A program made the position numbers and the translations under genes. The notes under the pieces were generated by a model. It worked only from the letters and a program-made list of their open reading frames with translations, was not told the DNA's origin and searched no databases. A DNA stretch of 64,000 bases from Actinoallomurus soli (GTDB lineage Bacteria > Actinomycetota > Actinomycetes > Streptosporangiales > Streptosporangiaceae): positions 1 through 64,000 of the forward strand of contig NZ_JAMXMV010000029.1 in assembly GCF_024055715.1 (NCBI RefSeq). Reading direction: 5' to 3'. The first letter of the stretch is position 1, and every line of letters starts with the position of its first letter. This document shows, piece after piece, positions 29,644 through 41,321 of the stretch.

Positions 29644-30867
29644 TCAGGACGCCGCGCGGCCGGATTCCTCGGTGAAGCGCTCGAGCCGGTAGGGCTCCAG
29701 CTCCGGCAGCCGAACGTCCTCCAGCAGCTCCCGGCTCACGAGCTCGGCGAGGCGCGCCGCGAGGGTGACGCCGCTGTGCGTCACCACGACGTACAGGCCG
29801 GGGACGGCGCCGACCGCTCCGGCCACCGGCATGCCGTCGGCCGGCATCGGCCGCACGCACACCCGGTACTCCTGCACACGGGCCTCGCGCAGGCTCGGCA
29901 CGACGAGCCGGGCCCGCTCCAGGAGCGTGTCCGCGAGGTCCCGCAGGACGGGCTCGGGAGTGTGCAGGTCCGCCGTGACGTCCCCGGCCTCCAGGTGCAC
30001 CGTGTGCGGGCCGTGCGGGCGCAGGTGCACGCCGGGCGTGTGCAGGACCCGGGTCGGCGGGACGTCGACCGGGCCGACCCGCACCACGAACCCCGGCGCG
30101 GTCGAGCCCGGCGGCTCCGGATCGACGATCGGGACGCGGATCCCCGCCATCGCGGCGACCGCGGGAGTCCAGCGCCCGGCGCAGCAGACGACGACGTCGG
30201 CGGGGATGAGGTCGCCCGCGGCGGTGCGCACCCCGGTGATCCGGTCACCGGGGCCCTCCGCTCCGGTGACCTGCCCCGCCTCGCCTGCGCGCTCGGTCTG
30301 ACCGCCCCGCGCGGCATCGCCGGCGCGCTGGAGTCCGGTGACCCGCCCGGCGTCGCCGGTGCGCACCCGCGCCCCGCGCCGGCGGGCCCGCGCCACCAGC
30401 CGCTCCACCAGAGGCTCGGTCAGCAGGTAGCCCTCCTCCGGGAACCAGGCGAAGGACAGGTCCCGCGCCGGCGTGTCCGGCAGGCGCAGGGCGGGTTCGA
30501 TCCCGGCCGCCTCATCCCGGTCGACCAGGCGCGCCGCGTACCCCCACGCTCGCGCCCGGGTCACCGTGGCCTCCAGCCGGTCCCGTCGCCCGGCGTCGGC
30601 GACCTCCAGGTTGCCGACCGGCCGGTACCAGGCGGGGCCGGCCAGCTCGGCGGCAAGGCGAGCCCAGGCGCGCATGCCGTCCGCGTTGAGCCGGTGATAG
30701 CCCTCCGGTGTCTTGGCGGCGGCGTTGAGCCAGGCGAGGCTCCACCTGCTGGTCGCCCGGCCGGGCCGGTCCTGCTCCAGGAGGGTCACCGACGCGCCTT
30801 CTCCGGCGAGCCGGTCCGCCAGGGCCGCTCCCACGATCCCGCCGCCGATCACCGCGTACCGAAGCAT
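29644..30867 (-). CDS. FAD-dependent oxidoreductase (DAO family)
   Basis: A 407-residue flavoprotein of the D-amino-acid/glycine-sarcosine oxidase fold. The N-terminal dinucleotide site is YAVIGGGIVGAALADRLAGE, followed by a typical TSRWSLAWLNA flavin-contact segment; the C-terminal block VRPMPADGMPVAGAVG..THSGVTLA closes the FAD site. The start at ATG 30867 (MLRYAVIGGG) is preferred to an upstream in-frame codon. Residues about 173-210 are an Arg/Gly/Glu/Ala stretch from a local DNA repeat, probably a surface insertion. It lies downstream of lacI on the same strand and likely belongs to that transcript; a secondary or tertiary amine substrate is plausible but unproven. Confidence 0.88.
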   Translation of the reverse strand: MLRYAVIGGGIVGAALADRLAGEGASVTLLEQDRPGRATSRWSLAWLNAAAKTPEGYHRLNADGMRAWARLAAELAGPAWYRPVGNLEVADAGRRDRLEATVTRARAWGYAARLVDRDEAAGIEPALRLPDTPARDLSFAWFPEEGYLLTEPLVERLVARARRRGARVRTGDAGRVTGLQRAGDAARGGQTERAGEAGQVTGAEGPGDRITGVRTAAGDLIPADVVVCCAGRWTPAVAAMAGIRVPIVDPEPPGSTAPGFVVRVGPVDVPPTRVLHTPGVHLRPHGPHTVHLEAGDVTADLHTPEPVLRDLADTLLERARLVVPSLREARVQEYRVCVRPMPADGMPVAGAVGAVPGLYVVVTHSGVTLAARLAELVSRELLEDVRLPELEPYRLERFTEESGRAAS

Positions 30868-30890
30868 GCTCCACCCGTTTCCTTCCGCTC

Positions 30891-31042
30891 GACGCCTCTG
30901 GTCTCCGGCGGCCATGAGCCGCCCGCCAGACGCCTCTGGTCTCCGGCCGTCATGCGCCGCCCGCCAGACGCCTCCGGTGCCCGGCCGTCACGCGCCACTC
31001 GCCAGACGCCTCCGGTGCCCGGCCGTCACGCGCCACTCGCCG
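30891..31042. repeat. 38-bp tandem repeat, four copies, overlapping the end of lacI
   Basis: Units at 30891-30928, 30929-30966, 30967-31004 and 31005-31042 begin gacgcctctggtctccggcc or a close variant. Copies 3 and 4 are identical apart from the last base; copies 1 and 2 differ by a few bases. Copy 4 includes the lacI stop (31026-31028) and last codons; read on the minus strand the array repeats the codons Ala-Ser-Gly-Ala-stop, imperfectly in the outer copies. Confidence 0.95.
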
Positions 31043-32135
31043 GGGCGGGCGCGGTCGAGGCCCTGCGCACCAGCTTCGCCTGGAGCCGCAGGTGCACGGC
31101 CTCGTCATCCGCCGGGCCGCCGCCCTCGCGTTGTGCCTGCACGCGCGCGAGCAACTGCTTCGCGGCGGCGGCTCCGAGCTCGCGATGGGGCTGCCGGACC
31201 ACCGTGAGCTGGGGACGTACCAGAGTCGTCCACTCCTGGTCGTCGAAGCCGACCAGGGAGATCTCCTCGGGGCAGGCGCGGCCGCTGCGCTGCACCGCCG
31301 CGAGGGCGCCCGAGGTGAGGATGTTGTCGGTGCAGAAGAGGGCGGTGACGGACGGGTTGCGGCGCAGCAGCCGGGCGGTGGCCCGTTCGGCGGCGGCCCG
31401 GTCGTACGGGGCCTGCACCACGAGGTCGGGATCCGGCCGGATACCGGCGCGCTGGAGAGCGGAGAGGTAGCCGGCGAGCCGGGCGGCGCTGGGCCGCTCC
31501 CCGTCGCCGTCCACGGAGGGGTCGAGCAGCCGGGAGAAGTCGCGTGACGCCTCGCTGACCACCGCGATGCGGCGGTGGCCCAGGCGGATCAGGTGGTCGA
31601 CGGCCCTGCGGGCGCAGGCGGTGTTGTTGACGAGCACCTGGTCGACCTGGGGGAGGGCCGGCAGCGGGCGGTCCAGGAGGACGACCGGGAGGCCGCCGTC
31701 GACCAGGGTGCGCAGCCGCCCGGCGCTGTCCGGCCCCTCGGGCGCGATGATCAGGCCGTCGACCCGCTTCTCCCACATGACCTGGATGGCGCGCTGCTCG
31801 GCCTCGGGGTCGGAGTCGGTGTTGGCGAGGAGGATCTCGAAGCCGCCGGCCCGCACCACGTCGGCGATGCCCCGTACGGCCTGGGCGAAGAAGGAGTTGC
31901 CGACGTCGGTGACGATGACGCCGATCGTCTCGGTCGAGCCCTGGATGAGGCTTCGGGCGAGCCCGTTGGGCCGGTATCCGAGCCGCTGGGCGGCCTCTTC
32001 CACCTTCTTCCGGGAGGCCGCGCTGGCCTGGCCGTATCCGCCGAGGACCCGGCCGGCCGTGGCGGTGGAGACCCCTGCGGCCCGTGCGACCTCGACGATG
32101 CTCGGCGGCCCGCCGGTCTGCCCCTTGCTGTGCAC
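31026..32135 (-). CDS. LacI-family transcriptional regulator
   Basis: The 369-residue product has the N-terminal LacI helix-turn-helix and hinge (SIVEVARAAGVSTATAGRVL, then VEEAAQRLGYRPNGLARSL) and a periplasmic-binding-type sensor domain (IGVIVTDVGNSFFAQAVRGI to LVGFDDQEWTTLVRPQLTVV). GTG 32135 is the best start; upstream in-frame codons would add over 40 unrelated residues. It is divergent from the frlB-like gene across a region holding three operator-like palindromes, so it most likely represses that operon and itself, with release by a sugar-derived ligand. Confidence 0.93.
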   Translation of the reverse strand: MHSKGQTGGPPSIVEVARAAGVSTATAGRVLGGYGQASAASRKKVEEAAQRLGYRPNGLARSLIQGSTETIGVIVTDVGNSFFAQAVRGIADVVRAGGFEILLANTDSDPEAEQRAIQVMWEKRVDGLIIAPEGPDSAGRLRTLVDGGLPVVLLDRPLPALPQVDQVLVNNTACARRAVDHLIRLGHRRIAVVSEASRDFSRLLDPSVDGDGERPSAARLAGYLSALQRAGIRPDPDLVVQAPYDRAAAERATARLLRRNPSVTALFCTDNILTSGALAAVQRSGRACPEEISLVGFDDQEWTTLVRPQLTVVRQPHRELGAAAAKQLLARVQAQREGGGPADDEAVHLRLQAKLVRRASTAPAPASGA

Positions 32136-32243
32136 GTGGCTGCCCCTGCTCTCCAGACGTCGTTCCCCGGGAGACGCCGCCCACTGGGCGTGACTCCCGA
32201 GGGTCTCCGCGGCCGCGGACCCTTGACACCAGTCTAGATCCGC

Positions 32244-32303
32244 TGAGAAGGTTCTCAGCACTGCGACTGAGAACCTTCTCAGTCCGTACTGAGAACCTTC
32301 TCA
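32244..32303. promoter_or_regulatory. Three operator-like palindromes between lacI and the frlB-like gene
   Basis: The 14-mer TGAGAAGGTTCTCA (32244-32257) and its exact reverse complement TGAGAACCTTCTCA (32268-32281 and 32290-32303) occur three times. Each has 6-bp inverted arms around a two-base centre. Start-to-start spacings are 24 and 22 bases, about two helical turns, so bound dimers would lie roughly on one face of the DNA. A perfect TTGACA lies at 32223-32228 next to the first site. This is the expected layout for LacI-family control of both directions. Confidence 0.8.
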
Positions 32304-32392: not shown

Positions 32393-33421
32393 ATGCTGGA
32401 CGTCGCCGTCGACCCGATCCCGCTGTCCGACGACCTGACCCCCACCCTCGAGCACACCGTCGCCCAGGCCGGCAAGGCGCGCGACCTGGCCGCCCGCCTG
32501 GTGGGGGAGGGGCTGAAGACGGCGTACTTCATCGGCTGCGGCGGTTCCTACTACTCGACCTTCCCCGCCCAGGACCTCATGGAGAGCGTCACCGGCGCGG
32601 TCGTGTCGCACCGGATGACCGCCGCGGAACTGATCCACCGCCCCCTCGCCGGGCTCGACCGGACCTCTCTCGTCGTCGCCTCCTCCCACTCCGGCGCCAC
32701 CCCCGAGACGCTGGAGGCCGTGCGGGTGGCGAAGAAGGCGGGCGCGACCGTGGCCGGCATCGCCCGGGCCGGCGACTCACCGCTCGCCGACGAGGCCGAC
32801 GTGCTCTTCGACTACCCGAGCGACGTCACCGTCACCGAGCCCAAGGCCATCCACTTCACGCAGGTGGCCCTCGCCCTCCTGGAGGCGACCGGATCCCTGC
32901 GGGACGCCGAACAGGCCTGGCGGGCCGTCGCCGCCGTACCGGAGGCGCTCACGGACGCCAAGCGGGAGGTCGCCTCCCTCGGGGCACGGGTCGGCGCCCA
33001 GTGGCGCGACGCCGAACTGGTGTACGTGCTCGCCGCCGGCCCGAACTTCGGCGCCGCGAACGCCCTGGCCGCCTGCTACCTGCAGGAGATGAACTGGCTG
33101 CACGCGTCGGCGGTCCACGCCGGGGACTTCTTCCACGGCCCGTTCGAGATCGTCGGCGACCACCCCGTGCTGGTGCTGGTGGGCGAGGACGCCACCCGGC
33201 CGATGGGCGAGCGGGCGGTGGCCTTCGCCGAGCGCTACTACCGCACCTGGTCCGTGCTGGATTCGAAGGACTTCGCCCTGCCGGGCGTGCCGCAGGAGCA
33301 GCGCGGTCTGATCAGTCCGCTCGCCGTGGCGAGCGCCTCCCGCCGGCTGCTCGACTTCTGCGCCGCCGAGCGCGGCCACAACACCGCCCAGCGCCGGTAC
33401 ATGTACCGGGTCGAGTACTGA
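32393..33421 (+). CDS. frlB: FrlB-like SIS-domain deglycase (fructosamine 6-phosphate type)
   Basis: The 342-residue protein has two SIS domains (about 35-165 and 205-330) without an amidotransferase domain. It resembles FrlB, which splits fructoselysine 6-phosphate into glucose 6-phosphate and lysine: YFIGCGGSYYS, SSHSGATPETLEA, VLAAGPNFGAA, HAGDFFHGPFEIV and the C-terminal HNTAQRRYMYRVEY, which parallels the HNP-RRYY-VEY end of FrlB. An FrlD-like kinase follows with a one-base stop/start overlap (TGATG, 33419-33423), the same pairing as in frl operons. GAGGAGA precedes the ATG. The amino group carried by the sugar is unknown. Confidence 0.83.
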   Translation: MLDVAVDPIPLSDDLTPTLEHTVAQAGKARDLAARLVGEGLKTAYFIGCGGSYYSTFPAQDLMESVTGAVVSHRMTAAELIHRPLAGLDRTSLVVASSHSGATPETLEAVRVAKKAGATVAGIARAGDSPLADEADVLFDYPSDVTVTEPKAIHFTQVALALLEATGSLRDAEQAWRAVAAVPEALTDAKREVASLGARVGAQWRDAELVYVLAAGPNFGAANALAACYLQEMNWLHASAVHAGDFFHGPFEIVGDHPVLVLVGEDATRPMGERAVAFAERYYRTWSVLDSKDFALPGVPQEQRGLISPLAVASASRRLLDFCAAERGHNTAQRRYMYRVEY

Positions 33422-34335
33422 TGCGGCTGATCGGCATCGGCGACAACGTGGTCGACCGTTATCCTGACCTGGGAACGATGTTCCCCGGCGGCAACGCGGT
33501 CAACGTCGCGGTCTACGCTCGGCGCGCCGGTGCCCGCGCCGCCTATCTGGGGGTGACCGGAGACGACGCCGCCGGCCGGGCCGTGCGCGCGGCGCTGCGC
33601 GCGGAGGACGTCGACACCGGCGAGGTGCGGACCGCGTCCGGTCCGAACGCCTGGGCCCAGATCGGCCTGGTCGACGGCGACCGGGTCTTCGAGGGCGCGT
33701 CCGACGGCGTCTCCCGCTTCCGGCTGACGGACGCGGAGATCGCCGGCCTGGCCGCCCATGACATCGTGCATACCGCCTACAGCGGCTCGCTGATCGAGCA
33801 GGTTCCGCGGATCGCCCGGCGGACCCGGGTGTCGTTCGACTTCTCCCAGCAGCGTGACGCGCCCTGGGCCCCGGACCTGGTGCCCCACCTGTACCTCGCC
33901 GCGTTCTCCGGAGCGGGCCTGGACGACGGGGAGGTGCGCGGGCTGCTGGCCGAGGCCGTGGCCCGCGGCGCGGGCTGGGCCCTGGTCACCCGGGGCCGCG
34001 ACGGGGCGTGGCTGAGCGACGGCGCCACCGTGTGGCGGCAGCCGGCGCGGCCGGTGGAGGTCGTGGACAGTCTCGGCGCGGGAGACGCGTTCATCGGCAC
34101 GCTGCTGGTGGCGCTCGCCGGCGGCGGGGATCCGACGCCGGGCCTGGCCGCCGCGGCGGCGGCGGCGGCGCGCGCCTGCGAGGAGCACGGCGGGTTCGGT
34201 CACGGCGTCCCCCTGGAACCGCCCGAGCCGCCCGGTCCCGTCCGCCCGCCGCGCCCGGCCGCGCGGACGCCCGGGATCGGGCCGGCCCCGGACGACCGCA
34301 CCCCCCACGCGAGCACCATCGGAGGAACGACATGA
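33421..34335 (+). CDS. frlD: FrlD-like PfkB-family sugar kinase
   Basis: A 304-residue kinase of the ribokinase fold. It parallels fructoselysine 6-kinase FrlD in the opening IGIGDNVVDRYPDLG, the sugar-binding GGNAVNVAVYARRAGA, the middle DRVFEGASDGV, VSFDFSQQRDAPW and the catalytic VDSLGAGDAF, where Asp222 is the base. It should phosphorylate the 6-position of a fructosamine before cleavage by the upstream deglycase. The kinase core ends near residue 262 (EEHGGFG); a Pro/Arg-rich tail of about 40 residues follows, longer than FrlD. Its stop overlaps the hyuA start (ATGA). Confidence 0.85.
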   Translation: MRLIGIGDNVVDRYPDLGTMFPGGNAVNVAVYARRAGARAAYLGVTGDDAAGRAVRAALRAEDVDTGEVRTASGPNAWAQIGLVDGDRVFEGASDGVSRFRLTDAEIAGLAAHDIVHTAYSGSLIEQVPRIARRTRVSFDFSQQRDAPWAPDLVPHLYLAAFSGAGLDDGEVRGLLAEAVARGAGWALVTRGRDGAWLSDGATVWRQPARPVEVVDSLGAGDAFIGTLLVALAGGGDPTPGLAAAAAAAARACEEHGGFGHGVPLEPPEPPGPVRPPRPAARTPGIGPAPDDRTPHASTIGGTT

Positions 34336-36404
34336 CACTGCGCATCGGCGTCGACACCGGAGGCACCTTCACCGACGTCGTCGCCTATGACGAGGTGACG
34401 GGGACCGTGCACGTGCGGAAGGTCTCCAGCACTCCGCAGGACCCCGGGCTGGCCATCGTCGAGGGCGTACGCCAGATCCTGGAGCAGGCCGGCGACCGGT
34501 CCATGGCCGAGGTGTCGTACTTCGCGCACGGCACGACCGTGGGCACCAACGCGCTGCTCACCGGCCACGGCGTGCGGACCGCCGTGATCACCACTCGTGG
34601 CTTCCGCGACCTGCTGGAACTGGGCCGCGGCCGCCGCCCGCGCCTGTACGACCTGCAGGCCGACAAGCCCGCCCCGTTCGCGCCGCGCGACCTGCGGCTG
34701 GAGGTCACCGAGCGGGTCCGGCACGACGGCCGGGTGGAGACGCCGCTGGACGAGCAGGACGTACGGGCCGCCGCCAAGGTGCTGCGCGAACGGGACGTCC
34801 GGGCCGTGGCGGTCTGCCTGCTCTACAGTTTCCTTCACCCCGAGCACGAGGAGCGGATCGGGGAGATCCTCGCCGAGGAACTGCCCGGCGCGTACGTGTC
34901 GCTGTCCAGCCGGGTGCTGCCGGAGTTCCGCGAGTACGAGCGGCTGTCCACCGTGGCCACCAACGCCTACGTCGGCCCGATCGTCGCCGACTACCTGGCC
35001 GGCCTGCGCCGGCGGCTGGCGGAGCAGGGCCTGGCCGTGGTCCCGCACGTCACCCAGTCCAACGGCGGCATCATCCCGTTCGAGGCGGCCGAGGCACTGC
35101 CGGTGCGCATGGTCCTGTCCGGCCCGAGCACCGGCGTGGTCGGAGCGGCCGGCATCTGCGCCGCCGCCGGGCACCCCGACATCATCACCTTCGACATGGG
35201 CGGCACGTCCTCCGACGTGTCCCTGGTGCAGGGTGGCGAGCCGAAGGTCACCACCGGCATGGAGCTGGACGGCCGGCCGATCCGCAGCCCGATGCTCGAC
35301 ATTCACACGGTCGGCGCCGGTGGCGGCTCCCTGGCCTGGGTGGACGCCGGCGGTCACCTCAAGGTCGGCCCGGCCAGCGCGGGCGCCGACCCGGGCCCCG
35401 CCTGCTACGGCAGGGGCGCCGAGGCGTCGGTGACCGACGCCAACGTGGTGCTGCACGTCCTCAACCCCGAGTACCTCCTGGACGGCCGGAAACGGATCGA
35501 CGAGGGCGCCGCCCGTGCGGCCGTCGAGCGGATCGCGGCCCGCGTCGGCCTGGGCACCGAGGAGACCGCCCAGGGCATCCTGCGCGTGGTCACCGCGAAC
35601 ATGGCCCGCGCGATCCGCGTCATCTCGGTGCAGCGCGGCTACGACCCCCGTGACTACACCCTGGTGCCCTTCGGTGGCGCGGGACCGCTGCACGCCTCCC
35701 GGCTCGCCCGCGAGCTGGGGATGCGCACCGTGCTGATCCCGCCGACGCCGGGCGCGCAGTCCGCCCTCGGCCTGCTCATGACCGACGTGCGCGCGGACTT
35801 CTCACGTACGCGCATCCAGCCGCTGGACGAGGACTCCGCCGGGCGGCTCGGCGCGGTGTACGCCGAGCTCGCCGCCGAGGCGCGCGCCTGGTTCGACGAC
35901 GAGCGCATCCCCGCGGCGGACCGTACCCTGCAGCGCGCCGCCGAGCTGCGCTACGTCGGACAGAACTACGAGATCGCAGTGCCCGTGCCCGACGGCGAGC
36001 TGGACGCGGCCGCCGTACGCGGCGTGCTCGACGCCTTCGCCGCCGAGCACGAGCGCATGTACGGCTACTCCTCCGCCGAGGAGCCCGTCCAGATCGTCAC
36101 CTTCCGGGTCCAGGGCGTGGGCGCGGTCCCGAAGGCCGCGCCGGCCCGGCAGGAGCCGGCCGGTGCGGACGCCTCCGCCGCGGTCGCCGGCAGCCGTGAG
36201 GTGTACCTGCCGGAGCTGGGCGGCTTCACGCCCGTCCCCATCTACCGGCGCGACCGGCTGCGCCCCGGCAACCGCGTCACGGGACCGGCCGTGGTCGAGC
36301 AGATGGACACCACGACCCTCCTGCTGCCCGGCGACACCCTCACGGTCGACGAGCACTCCAACCTCGTCGTCGCCATCGCCGAGCCCGTCGCCGCCACGGC
36401 CTGA
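34332..36404 (+). CDS. hyuA: Hydantoinase/5-oxoprolinase subunit A
   Basis: The 690-residue product is HyuA, the ATP-binding half of N-methylhydantoinase and 5-oxoprolinase-type enzymes, which open cyclic imides or lactams with ATP. It starts with the actin-like phosphate loop IGVDTGGTFTDVV, then FAHGTTVGTNALL, VLPEFREYERLSTVATNAYV, NGGIIPFE, TFDMGGTSSDVSLV, GAGGGSLAW and PFGGAGPLHA. Length and motif order are complete. GGAGGAA (34320-34326) precedes the ATG at 34332, which sits in an ATGA overlap with the kinase. With hyuB 35 bases on, it forms the normal A-B pair. Confidence 0.94.
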   Translation: MTLRIGVDTGGTFTDVVAYDEVTGTVHVRKVSSTPQDPGLAIVEGVRQILEQAGDRSMAEVSYFAHGTTVGTNALLTGHGVRTAVITTRGFRDLLELGRGRRPRLYDLQADKPAPFAPRDLRLEVTERVRHDGRVETPLDEQDVRAAAKVLRERDVRAVAVCLLYSFLHPEHEERIGEILAEELPGAYVSLSSRVLPEFREYERLSTVATNAYVGPIVADYLAGLRRRLAEQGLAVVPHVTQSNGGIIPFEAAEALPVRMVLSGPSTGVVGAAGICAAAGHPDIITFDMGGTSSDVSLVQGGEPKVTTGMELDGRPIRSPMLDIHTVGAGGGSLAWVDAGGHLKVGPASAGADPGPACYGRGAEASVTDANVVLHVLNPEYLLDGRKRIDEGAARAAVERIAARVGLGTEETAQGILRVVTANMARAIRVISVQRGYDPRDYTLVPFGGAGPLHASRLARELGMRTVLIPPTPGAQSALGLLMTDVRADFSRTRIQPLDEDSAGRLGAVYAELAAEARAWFDDERIPAADRTLQRAAELRYVGQNYEIAVPVPDGELDAAAVRGVLDAFAAEHERMYGYSSAEEPVQIVTFRVQGVGAVPKAAPARQEPAGADASAAVAGSREVYLPELGGFTPVPIYRRDRLRPGNRVTGPAVVEQMDTTTLLLPGDTLTVDEHSNLVVAIAEPVAATA

Positions 36405-36439
36405 CCCGACCCGCCTTCCGGCCCGCCCCGAGGAACGCA

Positions 36440-38116
36440 ATGAACGCCAACGCCAAGAGCACAGCCGCACCGGACCCCGTGCTGGTCGAGGTCATGGGCT
36501 CGGCCCTGTCCTCCATCGTCGAGGAGATGGGCGAGACCCTGGTGCGCGCCGCCTACTCCAGCAACATCAAGGAGCGCCGGGACTGCACCGCCGGCCTGTT
36601 CGGCGCCGACGGCCACATGCTGGCGCAGTCCGAGCAGGCCTCGCCGATCCACCTCGGCTCACTGATCGGCGTCGTCTCCGCCGTCCTGGAGCGTTTCCCC
36701 GTCGAGGAGATCCTCCCCGGCGACACCTTCATCAGCAACGACCCGTACTCCGGCGGCGGCTCCCACCTGCCCGACATGGTGCTGGTCACGCCGGTGTTCG
36801 TGGACGGCCTGCTGACCGCCTGGGCCGCCAACCTGGCCCATCACGCCGACTTCGGGGACCGGGGCCACGCCCACATCTTCCAGGAGGGCCTGCGCATCCC
36901 GCCGGTGCGGTTCGCCCGCGACGGCAGGATCCAGGAGGACGTCTTCCGGCTGATCCTCACCAACTGCCAGGTCCCGGCCGAGCGGCGCGCCGACTTCCGC
37001 GCCCAGCTCGCCGCCAACCGGCTCGCGACCGCCCGGTACACCGAGCTGGCCGGGCGCTACGGCCGCGACACCATGATCGCCACGGCGGCGGCGCTGCTCG
37101 ACTACACCGAGCGCCGCACCCGCGCCGCGATCGCGGAGGTACCGGACGGCACCTATACCTTCCGCGACCGGTTCGACTGCCCCGAGCTGGACGATGAGCT
37201 CGAGTTGCGGCTGACGGTCACGGTGACCGGCGACGAGCTGCACTTCGACTTCGCCGGCAATCCGGATCAGGTCCGGGCCTCGGTGAACATGGTGTGGACG
37301 GCCCTGTACGCCACCGTCTACTACGCGGTGAAGACCCTGGTCGACCCGGACATCCCGTCGAACGCGGGCCTGCACCGCCCGATCCGCATCGACGCGCCGC
37401 TCGGCTCCATCGTCAACTGTGTCGAGCCCGCCGCCGTCAACGGCCGTACCGAGACCTGCCAGCGCGTCGTCGACCTGGTGCACGGGGCCCTGGCACCGGC
37501 GGTGCCCGAGCGGGTGACCGCCGCCGCCAACGGCGCGAACACCGGAGTGCACTTCTCCGGGCTGGACTCCCGCACCGGCCGGTACTTCGTCTATCTGGAG
37601 ACCATCGGCGGCGGCTCAGGCGCTCGTGCGACCAAGGACGGGCTGGACGGCGTGCAGGTGCACGTCACCAACACCTCCAACCTCCCGGTGGAGTCGCTGG
37701 AGACCGAGTATCCGCTGGTCGTCGAGGCATACGAGCTCGTCGAGGACTCCGGCGGCGCGGGGCGGCACCGCGGGGGCATGGGCATCCGCCGCACCGTGCG
37801 CGTCGAGGACTCCGACGTGCAGTTCTGGCTGGACACCAGCCGGCGGGCCTCCCGGCCCTGGGGCCTGTTCGGCGGACGGCCCGGCGCCAGTGCCCGCGTC
37901 GAGCTCAGCGACGGAGCCCGGCCCGTGGTGCACGGCCACACCGTGCTGCAGCCCGGCGATCGGGTGAGCATCGTGACGGCCGGCGCCGGCGGCTACGGCG
38001 ACCCGGCCGAACGCTCGCCCGAACAGGTGCGGCGCGACATCCGCGAGCAGGTGATCTCCCCCGAGCAGGCGCGCGAGCACTACGGCGAGATCGCTCTCCC
38101 CACCGAGGAGTCCTGA
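36440..38116 (+). CDS. hyuB: Hydantoinase/5-oxoprolinase subunit B
   Basis: The 558-residue HyuB partner. Diagnostic stretches are SSNIKERRDCTAGLF, GDTFISNDPYSGGGSHLPDM, AHHADFGDRG, PSNAGLHRPI, GGGSGARATKDGLDG and GGAGRHRGGMGIRRT; the C terminus keeps GAGGYGDP. The family cleaves hydantoins, N-methylhydantoin, 5-oxoproline or related amides (also acetone in carboxylases); specificity cannot be set from motifs. GAGGAA precedes the ATG. A gap of 142 bases with cytosine-rich sequence, and no obvious terminator, separates it from the transporter gene. Confidence 0.94.
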   Translation: MNANAKSTAAPDPVLVEVMGSALSSIVEEMGETLVRAAYSSNIKERRDCTAGLFGADGHMLAQSEQASPIHLGSLIGVVSAVLERFPVEEILPGDTFISNDPYSGGGSHLPDMVLVTPVFVDGLLTAWAANLAHHADFGDRGHAHIFQEGLRIPPVRFARDGRIQEDVFRLILTNCQVPAERRADFRAQLAANRLATARYTELAGRYGRDTMIATAAALLDYTERRTRAAIAEVPDGTYTFRDRFDCPELDDELELRLTVTVTGDELHFDFAGNPDQVRASVNMVWTALYATVYYAVKTLVDPDIPSNAGLHRPIRIDAPLGSIVNCVEPAAVNGRTETCQRVVDLVHGALAPAVPERVTAAANGANTGVHFSGLDSRTGRYFVYLETIGGGSGARATKDGLDGVQVHVTNTSNLPVESLETEYPLVVEAYELVEDSGGAGRHRGGMGIRRTVRVEDSDVQFWLDTSRRASRPWGLFGGRPGASARVELSDGARPVVHGHTVLQPGDRVSIVTAGAGGYGDPAERSPEQVRRDIREQVISPEQAREHYGEIALPTEES

Positions 38117-38258
38117 CCCGGCACCGCCGCACGCCATCCCCGACCGCACCGCACCGCACCGCATCGCCCGTCCCGGCCACACCGCACTCCCGTCCCGGCC
38201 CACCGGCCCGCCACTGCGGGCCGGCGTCTCCCCCCACCCCCCAGAAAGGAGAGGTCCG

Positions 38259-39632
38259 GTGAGCCACACCGCAGCGCCGTCCAACGGCGACTCCGCCGGC
38301 ACTCCCGCCTCCGGTCCCGCCCGCGACCACACCGGAGCCCCGCCGACCGCCATCTCATGGCGCCGGATCCTCTTGTCCGCCGTCCTCGGCAACACCGTCG
38401 AGTGGTACGACAACGCCCTCTACGGCATCCTGGCGGTGATCATCGCCCGGCGGTTCTTCGCCGGCGGCGACTCCACCGCGGGCCTGATCTCGACCTACCT
38501 CGCCCTGATCCTCTCGTACGCGGTCCGCCCGATCGGCGGCACCCTCATGGGCCGCATCGGCGACGTCAAAGGACGCAAGTACGTCCTGACGCTGACGATC
38601 ATGCTGATGTCGGTCGGGACCGTGGCCATCGGGCTGCTGCCCTCCTACGCGGCCATCGGCGTCGCCGCGCCCGCCCTGCTCGCCGTGTGCCGGGTCGTCC
38701 AGGGCGTCGGCGCCAGCGGCGAGTACACCGCGGCCGCCGACTTCCTGCTGGAGCACGGCGACCGGCGCCGCAACTACCTGTCCGGGCTGTGCGTCGGCTC
38801 GACCTCGCTCGGCCCGCTGCTCGCCTCGGTCGTCGCGTACGTCATGATCCTGGCCGTCCCGGAGCACGCCTTCGACTCCTGGGGCTGGCGGGTGCTGTTC
38901 CTCCTGGCGGCGCCGCTGTCGCTGGTGACCATCTACATCCGCAGACACGTCACCGAGACCCCGGAATTCCAGCGGGTGATGGCGCAGGCGAAGGCGGAGA
39001 CCGTCAAGCAGACGCCGTTCCGGGAGGCGGTGCGCGAACACTGGCTCGACATGCTCCGCGCGATCGGTCTGGGGGCCGGTCAGCGGATCGGTTCCTTCGT
39101 GATCCAGAGCTACTTCGTCACCGCGCTCGTCCAGAACGGTTTCGGCGAGGACCAGGCACTGCTGGCCGCCATCCTCACGTACGTCGTCGGAGCACCGGCG
39201 GCGATCTGGGGCGGCCGCATGGCCGACCGGCACGGTGGACGGCGCCTGCTGGTGGCGGGCTACTCGGTGTTCGTCATCTTCACCGTGCCGACCTTCCTCG
39301 CCATCGAGTCGGGCTCGGTGGTCCTCGCGTTCATCGCCGTGGTCGTCTTCACCGTGATCAACAACATCATCGGCGGGCCGCTCACCACCGCGTACGTCAT
39401 GAGCTACCCGGCGCACGTGCGCGGCACGGCCTCGGCCCTCAACTACAACGTCGGAACGACGCTCCTCGGCGGCACCGCGCCGCTGCTCGCCGCCTGGCTG
39501 CACGGGCTCACCGGCACGGACGTGTCCTTCGGCTGGTACATGACGTTCTTCTGCCTGGTCTCCGCGCTCGTCGCCGGCTTCGCGCTGCCGAAGGCCATCG
39601 ACGAGGCGCGAGGGCTCCCGGCCGCCGCGTAG
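38259..39632 (+). CDS. MHS-family (major facilitator) transporter
   Basis: A 457-residue membrane protein with about 12 helices. The opening VLGNTVEWYDNALYGILAVI, the loop 2-3 motif GRIGDVKGRKYVL, and GWRVLFLLAAPLSLVTIYIR are characteristic of the metabolite:H+ symporter branch (ProP/ShiA/KgtP-like). It most likely imports the substrate of the surrounding catabolic genes. A strong site (AAAGGAGAGG) precedes the GTG at 38259. Substrate not predictable; relatives carry betaine, proline, citrate, dicarboxylates or shikimate. Confidence 0.92.
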   Translation: MSHTAAPSNGDSAGTPASGPARDHTGAPPTAISWRRILLSAVLGNTVEWYDNALYGILAVIIARRFFAGGDSTAGLISTYLALILSYAVRPIGGTLMGRIGDVKGRKYVLTLTIMLMSVGTVAIGLLPSYAAIGVAAPALLAVCRVVQGVGASGEYTAAADFLLEHGDRRRNYLSGLCVGSTSLGPLLASVVAYVMILAVPEHAFDSWGWRVLFLLAAPLSLVTIYIRRHVTETPEFQRVMAQAKAETVKQTPFREAVREHWLDMLRAIGLGAGQRIGSFVIQSYFVTALVQNGFGEDQALLAAILTYVVGAPAAIWGGRMADRHGGRRLLVAGYSVFVIFTVPTFLAIESGSVVLAFIAVVVFTVINNIIGGPLTTAYVMSYPAHVRGTASALNYNVGTTLLGGTAPLLAAWLHGLTGTDVSFGWYMTFFCLVSALVAGFALPKAIDEARGLPAAA

Positions 39633-39728
39633 CGGCCTCCCCGGTGGCGGCCGGGTCCGGGCGGCGGGGGCGCCCGGACCCGGCCCGCCCGGCCGCGTAC
39701 CCCCGTGTCGAACATCGGAAGGAAATAC

Positions 39729-41321
39729 ATGGACACCGCGCTCCCGGCCCGTTATGGGCGTAAACCCCTGGTCACCGGCACGTCGGGGATGGTGGTGACC
39801 TCGCATCCGATCGCGGCCCGTGCCGCGCGCGACGTGCTGCGCGAGGGCGGCAACGCCTGCGACGCGGCGCTCACCGCCGCCGCCGCGCAGTTGGTCGTGG
39901 AGCCGCACATGACGTCGCTCACCGGCGGACTCAGCATGCTGCACCGCCGGGCGGCCGACGGCGCGACCGTGTACCTCAACGGCAACGTCAACGCGCCGCT
40001 GGCACCGCTGCCCGACTTCACCGGGGCGGACCTGACACGGGGGAGGGGTGTTCCCGTGCCCGGCTGGTGGCCCGCCTTCGACGAGGCGCGGCGCCGGTTC
40101 GGCAGTCTGCCGGTCACCCGCCTGCTCGCCCCCGCGATCGCGGTCGCGCGGGAGGGCTTCGAGGTCAACCCGTTCCTCTTCGGGCTCATGTACGGAGCGC
40201 AGGCCGACCTGGGCGCGTCCGAGCAGATGCGCGAGGTATTCTTCCCCGACGGGCACCTGGCGATGCCCGGGCAGGTCATCCGGCAGGAGCGGGCCGCCCG
40301 CACCCTGGAGCGGCTGCGCGACGAGGGCATGGACTACTACCTCGGCGACTTCGCCCGTGCCTTCTGCGAGACCGTGCGCTCCGACGGCGGGGTCATCGGG
40401 CCGGCGGACTTCGAGCAGTACCGCGTGCTCCTGCAGGAACCGGTACGGGGCACGTACCGCGGGGCCGAGGTCGTCGCCTCCCCGCCGCCGGACGACGGGG
40501 GCGCCCAGCTCGTCGAGGCCCTCAACATGCTGGAGACCGTGGACGTGGCGCGGCTCGGCCCGCCGTCCGCGTCACCGGAGTGCCTGAAACTGCTGGTCCA
40601 GGTGCACAACACCGTGTACTACGCGCCGCCCCGGCAGCACGGCCCGGAGCAGGACGGAGAGCGGCTCGCGCTGCTGCTGTCCAAGGAGTACGCCCGCACC
40701 AGGATGGCGCTGTTGTCGTCCCGGCCTCCGCTCGGCGCCGCGCCGCCGACCCCCGGCACCATCCACGTCTCCGTGGTGGACCGCAACGGCGACATCGCCT
40801 CGGTCACCCACTCCCACATGGCGTCCGGTTGGGTGAACGGGCTGTTCTGCGAGGGTTTCCAGCTGTCCGGAGGCGGCTCCTTCTTCCAGCGGGTGATGCC
40901 GCAGCCGGGCGAGCGGGCCTGCGTCTACCTCGCGCCCAACATCGTCCTCCGGAACGGCAGGCCGGTACTCGTCTCCGGGTCGCCGTCGGTGTCCCTGGTG
41001 GCCTGTGTGCTGCAGAACGTCGTGAACCTGCTGGACTTCGGCATGACGATCGAGGAGTCCGTGCAGGCGCCGCGGTTCGGCGCCCGTCCGCACTCGCCCG
41101 AGCGGGGCTGGGAGCCCGGCAACCTGCTGGAGGCCGGCCTCGCGCCGGAGGTGCTGCGGGAGTTCCGCGCCTGGGCCGGGCGGGAACGCCTGTGGACGCG
41201 CGTGACCAACCCCTGGTACGCGCTCACCGGGAACTTCGAGGGCATCACCCTGGACCCGGCCACCGGTGTCATGGCGGCGTGCGCGGACCCACGCCGGGTC
41301 GGTGCGGCCGAGGCCGCGTGA
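39729..41321 (+). CDS. Gamma-glutamyltransferase-fold Ntn hydrolase with altered substrate pocket
   Basis: A 530-residue GGT-family protein. Family landmarks include GMVVTSHPIAARAARDVL, EGGNACDAALTAA, VPGWWPAFDEA, SPPPDDGGAQLVEALNMLE and ITLDPATG. The autoprocessing nucleophile is retained as Thr344 in GTIHVSVVD, giving predicted subunits of 343 and 187 residues. Residues that hold glutamate in E. coli GGT are not: the Arg of FREMAP is replaced in LNGNVNAP, the Ser-Ser of PLSSMSP in CVYLAP, and the Asp of the lid segment is absent. No signal peptide, so it is cytoplasmic. Start 39729 follows GGAAGGA; a GTG at 39705 is less likely. It closes the frl/hyu operon. Confidence 0.85.
   Translation: MDTALPARYGRKPLVTGTSGMVVTSHPIAARAARDVLREGGNACDAALTAAAAQLVVEPHMTSLTGGLSMLHRRAADGATVYLNGNVNAPLAPLPDFTGADLTRGRGVPVPGWWPAFDEARRRFGSLPVTRLLAPAIAVAREGFEVNPFLFGLMYGAQADLGASEQMREVFFPDGHLAMPGQVIRQERAARTLERLRDEGMDYYLGDFARAFCETVRSDGGVIGPADFEQYRVLLQEPVRGTYRGAEVVASPPPDDGGAQLVEALNMLETVDVARLGPPSASPECLKLLVQVHNTVYYAPPRQHGPEQDGERLALLLSKEYARTRMALLSSRPPLGAAPPTPGTIHVSVVDRNGDIASVTHSHMASGWVNGLFCEGFQLSGGGSFFQRVMPQPGERACVYLAPNIVLRNGRPVLVSGSPSVSLVACVLQNVVNLLDFGMTIEESVQAPRFGARPHSPERGWEPGNLLEAGLAPEVLREFRAWAGRERLWTRVTNPWYALTGNFEGITLDPATGVMAACADPRRVGAAEAA

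Follow-up and report, generated by a model that had tools for sequence, protein, structure and literature searches.

Within the window, by which we mean the whole stretch of 64,000 nucleotides analysed here, six open reading frames follow one another on the plus strand and encode a FrlB-like deglycase, a FrlD-like kinase, HyuA, HyuB, an MHS transporter and a GGT-fold hydrolase, with a lacI-family gene in divergent orientation (Table 1). The preliminary description had named these six same-strand genes, and the open reading frames bear it out, as each of the six proteins carries the expected Pfam domains with matches above the Pfam cut-offs. It had also given overlaps of one and four bases, a gap of 35 bases and two gaps of about 100-140 bases, which agrees with what we find: frlB and frlD overlap by one base (TGATG, 33421), frlD and hyuA by four (ATGA, 34332-34335), and 35 and 142 bases separate hyuA from hyuB and hyuB from the MHS gene, respectively. 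The distance between the MHS and GGT-fold genes is 96 bases with an ATG start at 39729, with which the orthologue in locus L056 agrees, or 72 bases with a GTG start at 39705.

Table 1. Features of the locus, in window coordinates
Feature	Position	Strand	Remarks
DAO-family FAD oxidoreductase, 3' of lacI	29644..30915	-	Pfam DAO; doubtful member
lacI-family regulator, divergent	31026..32261	-	Pfam; orthologues in L036, L056, L057
Three exact TGAGAAGGTTCTCA/TGAGAACCTTCTCA palindromes	32244-32257, 32268-32281, 32290-32303	.	Probable LacI operators
frlB-like SIS deglycase	32393..33421	+	342 aa; Pfam SIS 66 bits
frlD-like PfkB kinase	33421..34335	+	304 aa; Pfam PfkB 103 bits
hyuA, ATP-dependent lactamase/hydantoinase A subunit	34332..36404	+	Pfam Hydant_A_N/Hydantoinase_A/Hydant_A_C 189/309/67 bits
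hyuB, metal-dependent partner subunit	36440..38116	+	Pfam Hydantoinase_B 592 bits
MHS-family (TIGR00883-type) metabolite/H+ symporter, presumed importer	38259..39632	+	Pfam MFS_1/Sugar_tr 96/85 bits
GGT-fold N-terminal-nucleophile hydrolase	39729..41321	+	Pfam G_glu_transpept 250 bits

Local regulation by the LacI-type protein is suggested by the repeated palindromes between the divergent regulator and the operon, which are putative operators. No further exact copy occurs in the 9.4-Mb genome, and all four aligned loci have counterparts of the first two. The true start of lacI is probably a GTG near 32135, where the orthologues in L056 and L057 start. A sigma-70 scan returned no promoter-like site, and the two terminator-like sites were no more than were seen in shuffled sequences.

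The first two genes place a SIS deglycase next to a fructosamine-type PfkB kinase, as in the frl, fra and moc pathways, and both proteins match the corresponding family models below the equivalog cut-offs (FrlB 86 bits against NCBIfam fructoselysine-6-P deglycase, cut-off 430; FrlD 202 bits against fructoselysine 6-kinase, cut-off 247). The best solved relatives of FrlB in our alignment are 3eua, named 'putative fructose-aminoacid-6-phosphate deglycase', and 3fkj, and its residues E232 and H248, 16 positions apart, match the Glu...FHGP stretch common to solved FrlB-like chains. The exact four letters FHGP were found in 7 of 44 FrlB-like proteins by a strict motif search, which was too strict, as the protein of L072 has FCHGP. 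FrlD carries a GAGDAF motif at residues 219-224. HyuA and HyuB have the features of the ATP-dependent lactamase (oxoprolinase/hydantoinase) family, namely the ATP-site motifs DTGGT (D8) and DMGGT (D288) in the A subunit and, in the B subunit, the residues D48/H109/D112/H134, which align with the metal ligands D41/H99/D102/H124 of CapB in chain 6yra_B (ligands as given in PMC8453981, the abstract of which prints D101A for the mutant). The pair thus resembles CapAB and the N-methylhydantoinase 7hk5 in family and in ATP-site and metal-site residues, while it differs from them in gene company and in its distance from the caprolactamase equivalogs. A caprolactamase proper was rejected for HyuAB, as the scores against the NCBIfam caprolactamase alpha and beta models (579 and 283 bits) lie far under the equivalog cut-off of 1000 for each. 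Because all four proteins fall below curated NCBIfam cut-offs, FrlB, FrlD, HyuA and HyuB are to be read as relatives and as unproven equivalogs.

Taken together, these features point to a catabolic operon under LacI control that would degrade an Amadori compound in cyclised form, on balance probably N-(1-deoxyfructosyl)-pyroglutamate together with its open form, fructosyl-glutamine (santhopine). In the route that we infer, in all its activities, its substrate, its import direction and its inducer, the MHS symporter would import the compound, HyuAB would spend ATP to open the gamma-lactam, giving fructosyl-glutamate, FrlD would phosphorylate the sugar at C6, before or after ring opening, and FrlB would cleave the phosphorylated compound to glucose 6-phosphate and glutamate. 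Deglycation would have to follow ring opening, since FrlB chemistry requires a free secondary amine, which the amide nitrogen of the lactam does not offer. The GGT-fold enzyme may provide a side entry by hydrolysing the amide in the side chain of fructosyl-glutamine that has not cyclised, in the way FraE acts on fructose-asparagine, although its part in the operon is a guess. The cluster appears to join two sets of enzymes whose other known settings are crown-gall plasmids and ordinary fructosamine operons. Our literature search, which was thin on subscription journals, found no report that joins hydantoinase and fructosamine genes, and in the literature searched no catabolic route for N-fructosyl pyroglutamate was found.

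The closest parallels come from the opine plasmids of Agrobacterium. In unrooted trees of HyuA, the protein on which the grouping rests, the window HyuA groups with the HyuA of the Ti and pAoF64/95 opine regions (99/99), apart from other HyuA, and it shares 54% identity with the pAoF64/95 protein. Like the window, pAoF64/95 and pTi_CFBP2712 have a SIS deglycase, a PfkB kinase and a HyuAB of the same group, and the SIS and PfkB genes of pAoF64/95 fit the published position of mocD and mocE. On these plasmids, however, the gene sets are separate, with mocDE (on pAoF64/95) for deoxyfructosyl-glutamine and HyuAB lying about 15-18 kb apart on one plasmid and HyuAB standing beside an SDR and a FAD oxidoreductase, whereas the window has a single overlapping operon that includes the MHS and GGT-fold genes and lacks an oxidoreductase. 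The DAO oxidase next to lacI was rejected as a core part, as it was found beside lacI in L057 only and in neither L036 nor L056, and at E 1e-5 it matched neither the plasmid FAD oxidoreductases nor the oxidase of L133. Presumably the plasmid HyuAB has a role in the use of agropinic acid; we found no literature naming both agropinic acid and a hydantoinase. A mocD mutant was reported to make deoxyfructosyl-glutamine that is not degraded (PMC6341043), and the lactamase/hydantoinase genes of pTi were linked to an opine that turns into a lactam spontaneously (PMC8554961).

The same enzymatic logic could serve another main substrate, an N-glycated lactam or cyclic imide such as a fructosyl-hydantoin, the lactam that a fructosyl-dipeptide or glycated lysine could form, or an opine-like sugar lactam whose ketose is not fructose. 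Members of the HyuAB families act on rings of several kinds, none of the substrate-binding residues of HyuAB is readable, and both subunits are nearer to the solved N-methylhydantoinase 7hk5 (512 bits for HyuA and 321 for HyuB) than to the caprolactamase 6yra (399 and 224 bits), with which a hydantoin substrate would be compatible. A gamma-lactam is nevertheless favoured by the grouping of HyuA with the opine regions and by the reported occurrence of N-fructosyl pyroglutamate, which has been described from many plant materials and by mass spectrometry from tobacco, onion and buckwheat honey. We regard such another main substrate as unlikely, if still deserving serious attention.

The arrangement is conserved. 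The preliminary description would have been undermined by a lack of conservation in other genomes, and instead L036, L056 and L057 show the same six-gene order with lacI divergent. Two of these loci are from named Streptomyces, and L056 lies in S. hygroscopicus NBRC 13472. The core frlB-frlD-hyuA-hyuB is also present in L058, from a different family, where the same-strand run also includes a solute-binding protein of family 5 (Dpp-type) and a gene resembling psicose-3-epimerase/FrlC, lacI is divergent, and neither GGT nor MHS genes were found. A second HyuAB lineage occurs together with frlBD in L041, L042, L059 and L060, and a tree in which both HyuA groups were forced to one side of a branch was rejected (p-AU 1.9e-9). 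The FrlB proteins of both lineages fall together with two Klebsiella sequences on the same side of a branch (94/96), while FrlD leaves them ungrouped, so the two gene sets may have been joined only once, with HyuAB exchanged later. Among the 21 frlD loci examined in the family draw (the window, which was not randomly drawn, plus 20, from 24 with E<=1e-25, some of which stop at contig edges), 4, the window included, have hyuAB within about 10 kb, against an expected value of about 0.0044 per locus, calculated from 245 HyuB matches in 150 genomes with an assumed mean of 7.4 Mb.

Such linkage might also reflect a composite scavenging operon, in which one inducer would control both frlBD, for ordinary fructosyl amino acids, and hyuAB, GGT and MHS, for a cyclic amide unrelated to these. 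Most frlBD loci do lack hyuAB (17 of 22 in one survey and 6 of 9, three of these nine on short contigs, in another), and HyuAB of the window's own group occurs apart from frlBD, which is absent within about 9-10 kb of hyuA at all 8 plasmid loci inspected (L139-L146) and from the 17-20 kb examined at the actinobacterial loci L133 and L149, so that HyuAB of the window type is not dedicated to fructosamines. Against a composite operon speak the overlapping reading frames at both the frlB/frlD and the frlD/hyuA junction, the occurrence of two HyuAB lineages with frlBD, and the presence in the window's genome of two further frlBD sets without hyuAB (L037 and L054), and we judge it rather improbable. 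The cyclised glycated compound of the preliminary description, with fructosyl-pyroglutamate named first, gains support from co-occurrence, from the second HyuAB lineage, from the opine-plasmid grouping and from the plant reports. More specifically, we speculate, somewhat short of an even expectation, that this is a dedicated N-fructosyl-pyroglutamate pathway in which two HyuAB lineages, one of them opine-type, were recruited to actinobacterial frl modules and a GGT-fold enzyme was repurposed as an amidase that handles the uncyclised form. If true, one gene set would connect the Maillard chemistry of plants with the catabolism of crown-gall opines and with Streptomyces-type bacteria, and it would contribute a lactamase that uses ATP to open N-substituted pyroglutamates, as well as a GGT-fold enzyme of novel specificity.

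The fra locus of Salmonella (FraE, FraA, FraD, FraB; PMC12051030) likewise combines an amide-handling enzyme, a transporter, a kinase and a deglycase for an Amadori compound, fructose-asparagine, but FraE is a periplasmic asparaginase, in place of which the window has an ATP-dependent lactamase and a GGT-fold protein. As in the window, the frl operons of E. coli and B. subtilis employ a kinase and then a deglycase on fructosamines, that of B. subtilis with an ABC importer and the repressor FrlR, and the accessible text of PMC12632257, which describes them, names no ring-opening enzyme.

The GGT-fold protein keeps the threonine nucleophile and lacks most of the gamma-glutamyl-binding residues. 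T391 of E. coli Ggt aligns with T352 (numbered from the GTG at 39705) in all four orthologues, which makes this residue the predicted nucleophile. The gamma-glutamyl-binding residues of E. coli Ggt, which we take to be R114, D433 and S462/S463, and the oxyanion residues, likewise taken as G483/G484, correspond to N, a gap, V or I, Y, S and V in the four orthologues (letters checked), while N411 aligns as N in the window-type proteins, though across gaps. A true gamma-glutamyltransferase was rejected for this protein, as most of the binding residues are gone although the threonine is kept. The structure predicted for the protein has a mean pLDDT of 34.

The GGT fold beside an oxoprolinase fold recalls glutathione turnover, and the operon could in principle clear glycated pyroglutamate or glutathione-type damage made intracellularly, with no external feeding; for B. 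subtilis, intracellular fructosamine 6-phosphates have been proposed as the inducer (PMC12632257). We set glutathione repair aside because the GGT binding residues are lost and importer genes are present, and consider self-repair in general very improbable. Importer-type genes lie beside the core in the window (the MHS symporter, 294 bits against the TIGR00883-type model, cut-off 443), in L058 and in L060, where a sugar-type binding protein and an ATPase accompany it, with similar open reading frames in L041 and L042. The local operator-like repeats speak against self-repair as well, as does the rarity of the window-type HyuA, which was found in 3 of 394 genomes of the class.

All six genes of the preliminary description are present, with the expected domains above Pfam cut-offs, and its junctions agree with ours: frlB and frlD share one base and frlD and hyuA four, hyuB begins 35 bases after hyuA, and the last two gaps, put at about 100-140 bases, measure 142 (hyuB to the MHS transporter gene) and 96 (MHS to the GGT-fold hydrolase gene, given an ATG start at 39729). 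The co-occurrence in other genomes that it proposed as a check was also borne out, as the six genes in order, together with a divergent lacI gene, recur in Streptomyces hygroscopicus NBRC 13472 (L056) and Streptomyces sp. S465 (L057), the only named records returned by a scan of 84,980 species that is sensitive to close relatives only, and in L036, a locus from a different genus of the same family. Identities of the six proteins across these three loci are 65-94%. The GGT-fold protein tracks the cluster, with matches at E<=1e-60 in two of 150 family genomes, both of which carry it. L058, a locus from another family, has frlB, frlD, hyuA (66% identity) and hyuB (68%) on one strand, in an array that also takes in a gene for a family-5 solute-binding protein, ORFs that on visual inspection look like permeases and ATPase, and a TIM-barrel gene. 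This last gene resembles D-psicose 3-epimerase most and fructoselysine 3-epimerase less strongly. A gene of the lacI family points away from the array, and no MHS or GGT match was found at the locus.

In the window, the lacI-family gene is divergent from frlB and is followed by a gene for a DAO-family FAD oxidoreductase, which is kept in L057, was not found in L056 or L036, and has ThiO as its closest model, at a low score. The lacI-frlB intergenic region holds three exact 14-base palindromes, of which the first is invariant across all four aligned loci, the second differs from its L036 counterpart in the central two bases alone, and the third occurs in the window only. A genome-wide search allowing one mismatch returned these three and a single one-mismatch site elsewhere, and this near confinement makes the LacI-family protein look like a local regulator of the six-gene operon.

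Coordinates of the features discussed
Locus	Position	Strand	Feature
Window	29644-30915	-	DAO-family FAD oxidoreductase
Window	32244-32303		three 14-base palindromes
Window	32393-41321	+	six-gene cluster
L037 (G000:C8), same genome	~74600-76300		second frlBD pair with lacI
L054 (G000:C57), same genome	~255500-257400		third, more distant frlB/frlD-like pair, no hyuAB
L060	17595-18071	+	glyoxalase-superfamily (VOC) gene directly 3' of hyuB
L133	3004-16498		opine-type hyuAB, divergent oxidase exceeding the N-methyl-tryptophan-oxidase cut-off, family-5 binding protein, ABC-like ORFs, LysR
L149	13325-14134	-	glucosamine-6-phosphate-deaminase-like (NagB-family) gene upstream of opine-type hyuAB
pAoF64/95	65912-67873		SIS and PfkB genes

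HyuA also connects the window with opine plasmids. Among the matches listed (40 of 248 records), which include many Agrobacterium plasmids, plasmid relatives share 53-57% identity over their best-matching place, and in unrooted trees of HyuA only, the window protein groups with the eight plasmid HyuA inspected (support 99/99). The plasmid hyuAB genes adjoin a peptide-type ABC operon, an SDR and an FAD oxidoreductase in pTi_CFBP2712 and pAoF64/95, and an opine dehydrogenase family gene in L145 and L146; FAD-type oxidoreductases are annotated nearby in L140, L141 and L142, and neither kind of gene is annotated near hyuAB in L144. Identities between the window and pAoF64/95 are 33% for FrlB, 43% for FrlD and 54% each for HyuA and HyuB. 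In pAoF64/95, 498 bases separate the end of the SIS and PfkB genes from a small LuxR-type gene. This agrees with PMC6341043, which places mocE some 500 bases ahead of tmsP and describes a mocD mutant as converting mannopine to deoxyfructosyl-glutamine without further degradation. Two other reports tie lactamase/hydantoinase genes of pTiAB2/73 to rideopine, an opine capable of spontaneous lactam formation (PMC8554961), and describe several opines as cyclising in acid (PMC4192606).

The preliminary description had proposed a glycated compound with a cyclised or amide-linked amino part, and we favour N-fructosyl-pyroglutamate, which by analogy would be the Amadori counterpart of agropinic acid. 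Agropinic acid is the lactam of mannityl-glutamate, and a 1999 report is said to have found that hydantoinase-like genes open it. By the same analogy, HyuAB would convert N-fructosyl-pyroglutamate to fructosyl-glutamate, FrlD would phosphorylate the latter, and FrlB would split the phosphorylated product into glucose 6-phosphate and glutamate; ring opening would have to come ahead of deglycation because the lactam nitrogen is an amide. HyuA retains both ATP-site aspartates. In FrlB, a Glu and a His lie 16 residues from each other, as they do in the solved FrlB-like chains, and we take them to correspond to the catalytic pair of FraB. HyuB retains all four metal ligands of CapB, mutants of which are inactive according to PMC8453981. 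The N-methylhydantoinase 7hk5 is a closer solved relative of both HyuA and HyuB than the caprolactamase 6yra is, so that sequence alone does not settle the ring type. N-fructosyl pyroglutamate is itself reported from plant materials, with mass spectrometric records from tobacco, onion and buckwheat honey.

The GGT-fold protein, whose predicted structure is of low confidence (mean pLDDT 34), retains the nucleophilic Thr and, two positions further along, the His. Relative to the gamma-glutamyl-binding and oxyanion residues of E. coli Ggt, Arg114 is replaced by Asn, Asp433 by a gap, Ser462 by Val or Ile, Ser463 by Tyr and Gly483-484 by Ser-Val in all four orthologues, which argues that its substrate is probably not a plain gamma-glutamyl compound. 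As a guess, it might deamidate fructosyl-glutamine, in parallel to FraE as described in PMC12051030.

No paper uniting fructosamine, hydantoinase and operon, or treating a fructosamine deglycase with Streptomyces, was found in a search beyond which most subscription journals lie, and among the literature matches listed 'hydantoinase' appeared solely alongside 'oxoprolinase'. Given this coverage, there is weak evidence that the joining of hyuAB to a fructosamine pathway is novel, the individual parts being of known kinds.

Counts at other loci speak against a strict coupling of hyuAB and frlBD. They are neighbours at 5 of 22 loci in one examined set and at 3 of 9 in another, three of these nine being on short contigs; hyuA lay within 8 kb at none of eight plasmid frlB loci, and frlBD at none of 21 other HyuAB loci (L107-L122, L134-L138). 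A HyuA-only search at E<=1e-185 returned three genomes among 394 of the class, each of them with frlBD, and a draw of 297 genomes from the order of L058 gave two with this HyuA type, the genome of L058 and that of L149. The latter has no frlBD in 20 kb. frlBD is likewise missing at L133, where hyuAB is accompanied by a divergently transcribed gene for an MSOX-family oxidase and one for a 2-hydroxyacid dehydrogenase; this set may be an oxidative counterpart to the pathway of the window. L133 and L149 form a branch of their own in the HyuA tree. Altogether, HyuA searches returned this HyuA type from five actinobacterial genomes, and in three of them it is linked to frlBD.

A second lineage, in L041, L042, L059 and L060, has frlB-frlD, a spacer of about 3 kb and then hyuA-hyuB, with a lacI-family gene in three of the four. 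The L060 spacer carries sugar-type ABC genes, identified by family search as those of a binding protein and an ATPase, and the L041 and L042 spacers hold similar ORFs. HyuA of these four loci is about 41-43% identical to that of the window. The nine frl-linked HyuA, designated as a group when the first tree was built, fall in two separate places, and forcing them together was rejected (log-likelihood 67 lower, p-AU 1.9e-9) in a tree in which several other rows are long-branched. In the FrlB tree, both lineages lie on one side of a branch together with two Klebsiella rows (94/96), and in the FrlD tree they are not grouped. The HyuA split and the FrlB grouping indicate that hyuAB joined frlBD twice, or once with a later swap, and either history speaks for a functional link. 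In a family draw, hyuAB lay within about 10 kb at 4 of the 21 frlD loci examined, where 0.0044 would be expected per locus; the chance of two independent lineages among the 21 is about 0.004, with the window included although it was not randomly drawn.

At the second frlBD pair of the window's genome (L037), no hyuAB was found, and its neighbours include ORFs that look, on visual inspection, like an amino-acid-type ABC set, together with a gene resembling those for ornithine cyclodeaminase/iminosuccinate reductase; it is probably an ordinary fructosyl-amino-acid operon. On the Klebsiella plasmids of L072 and L073, lacI, frlB and frlD form a set with amino-acid ABC genes and a TIM-barrel gene.
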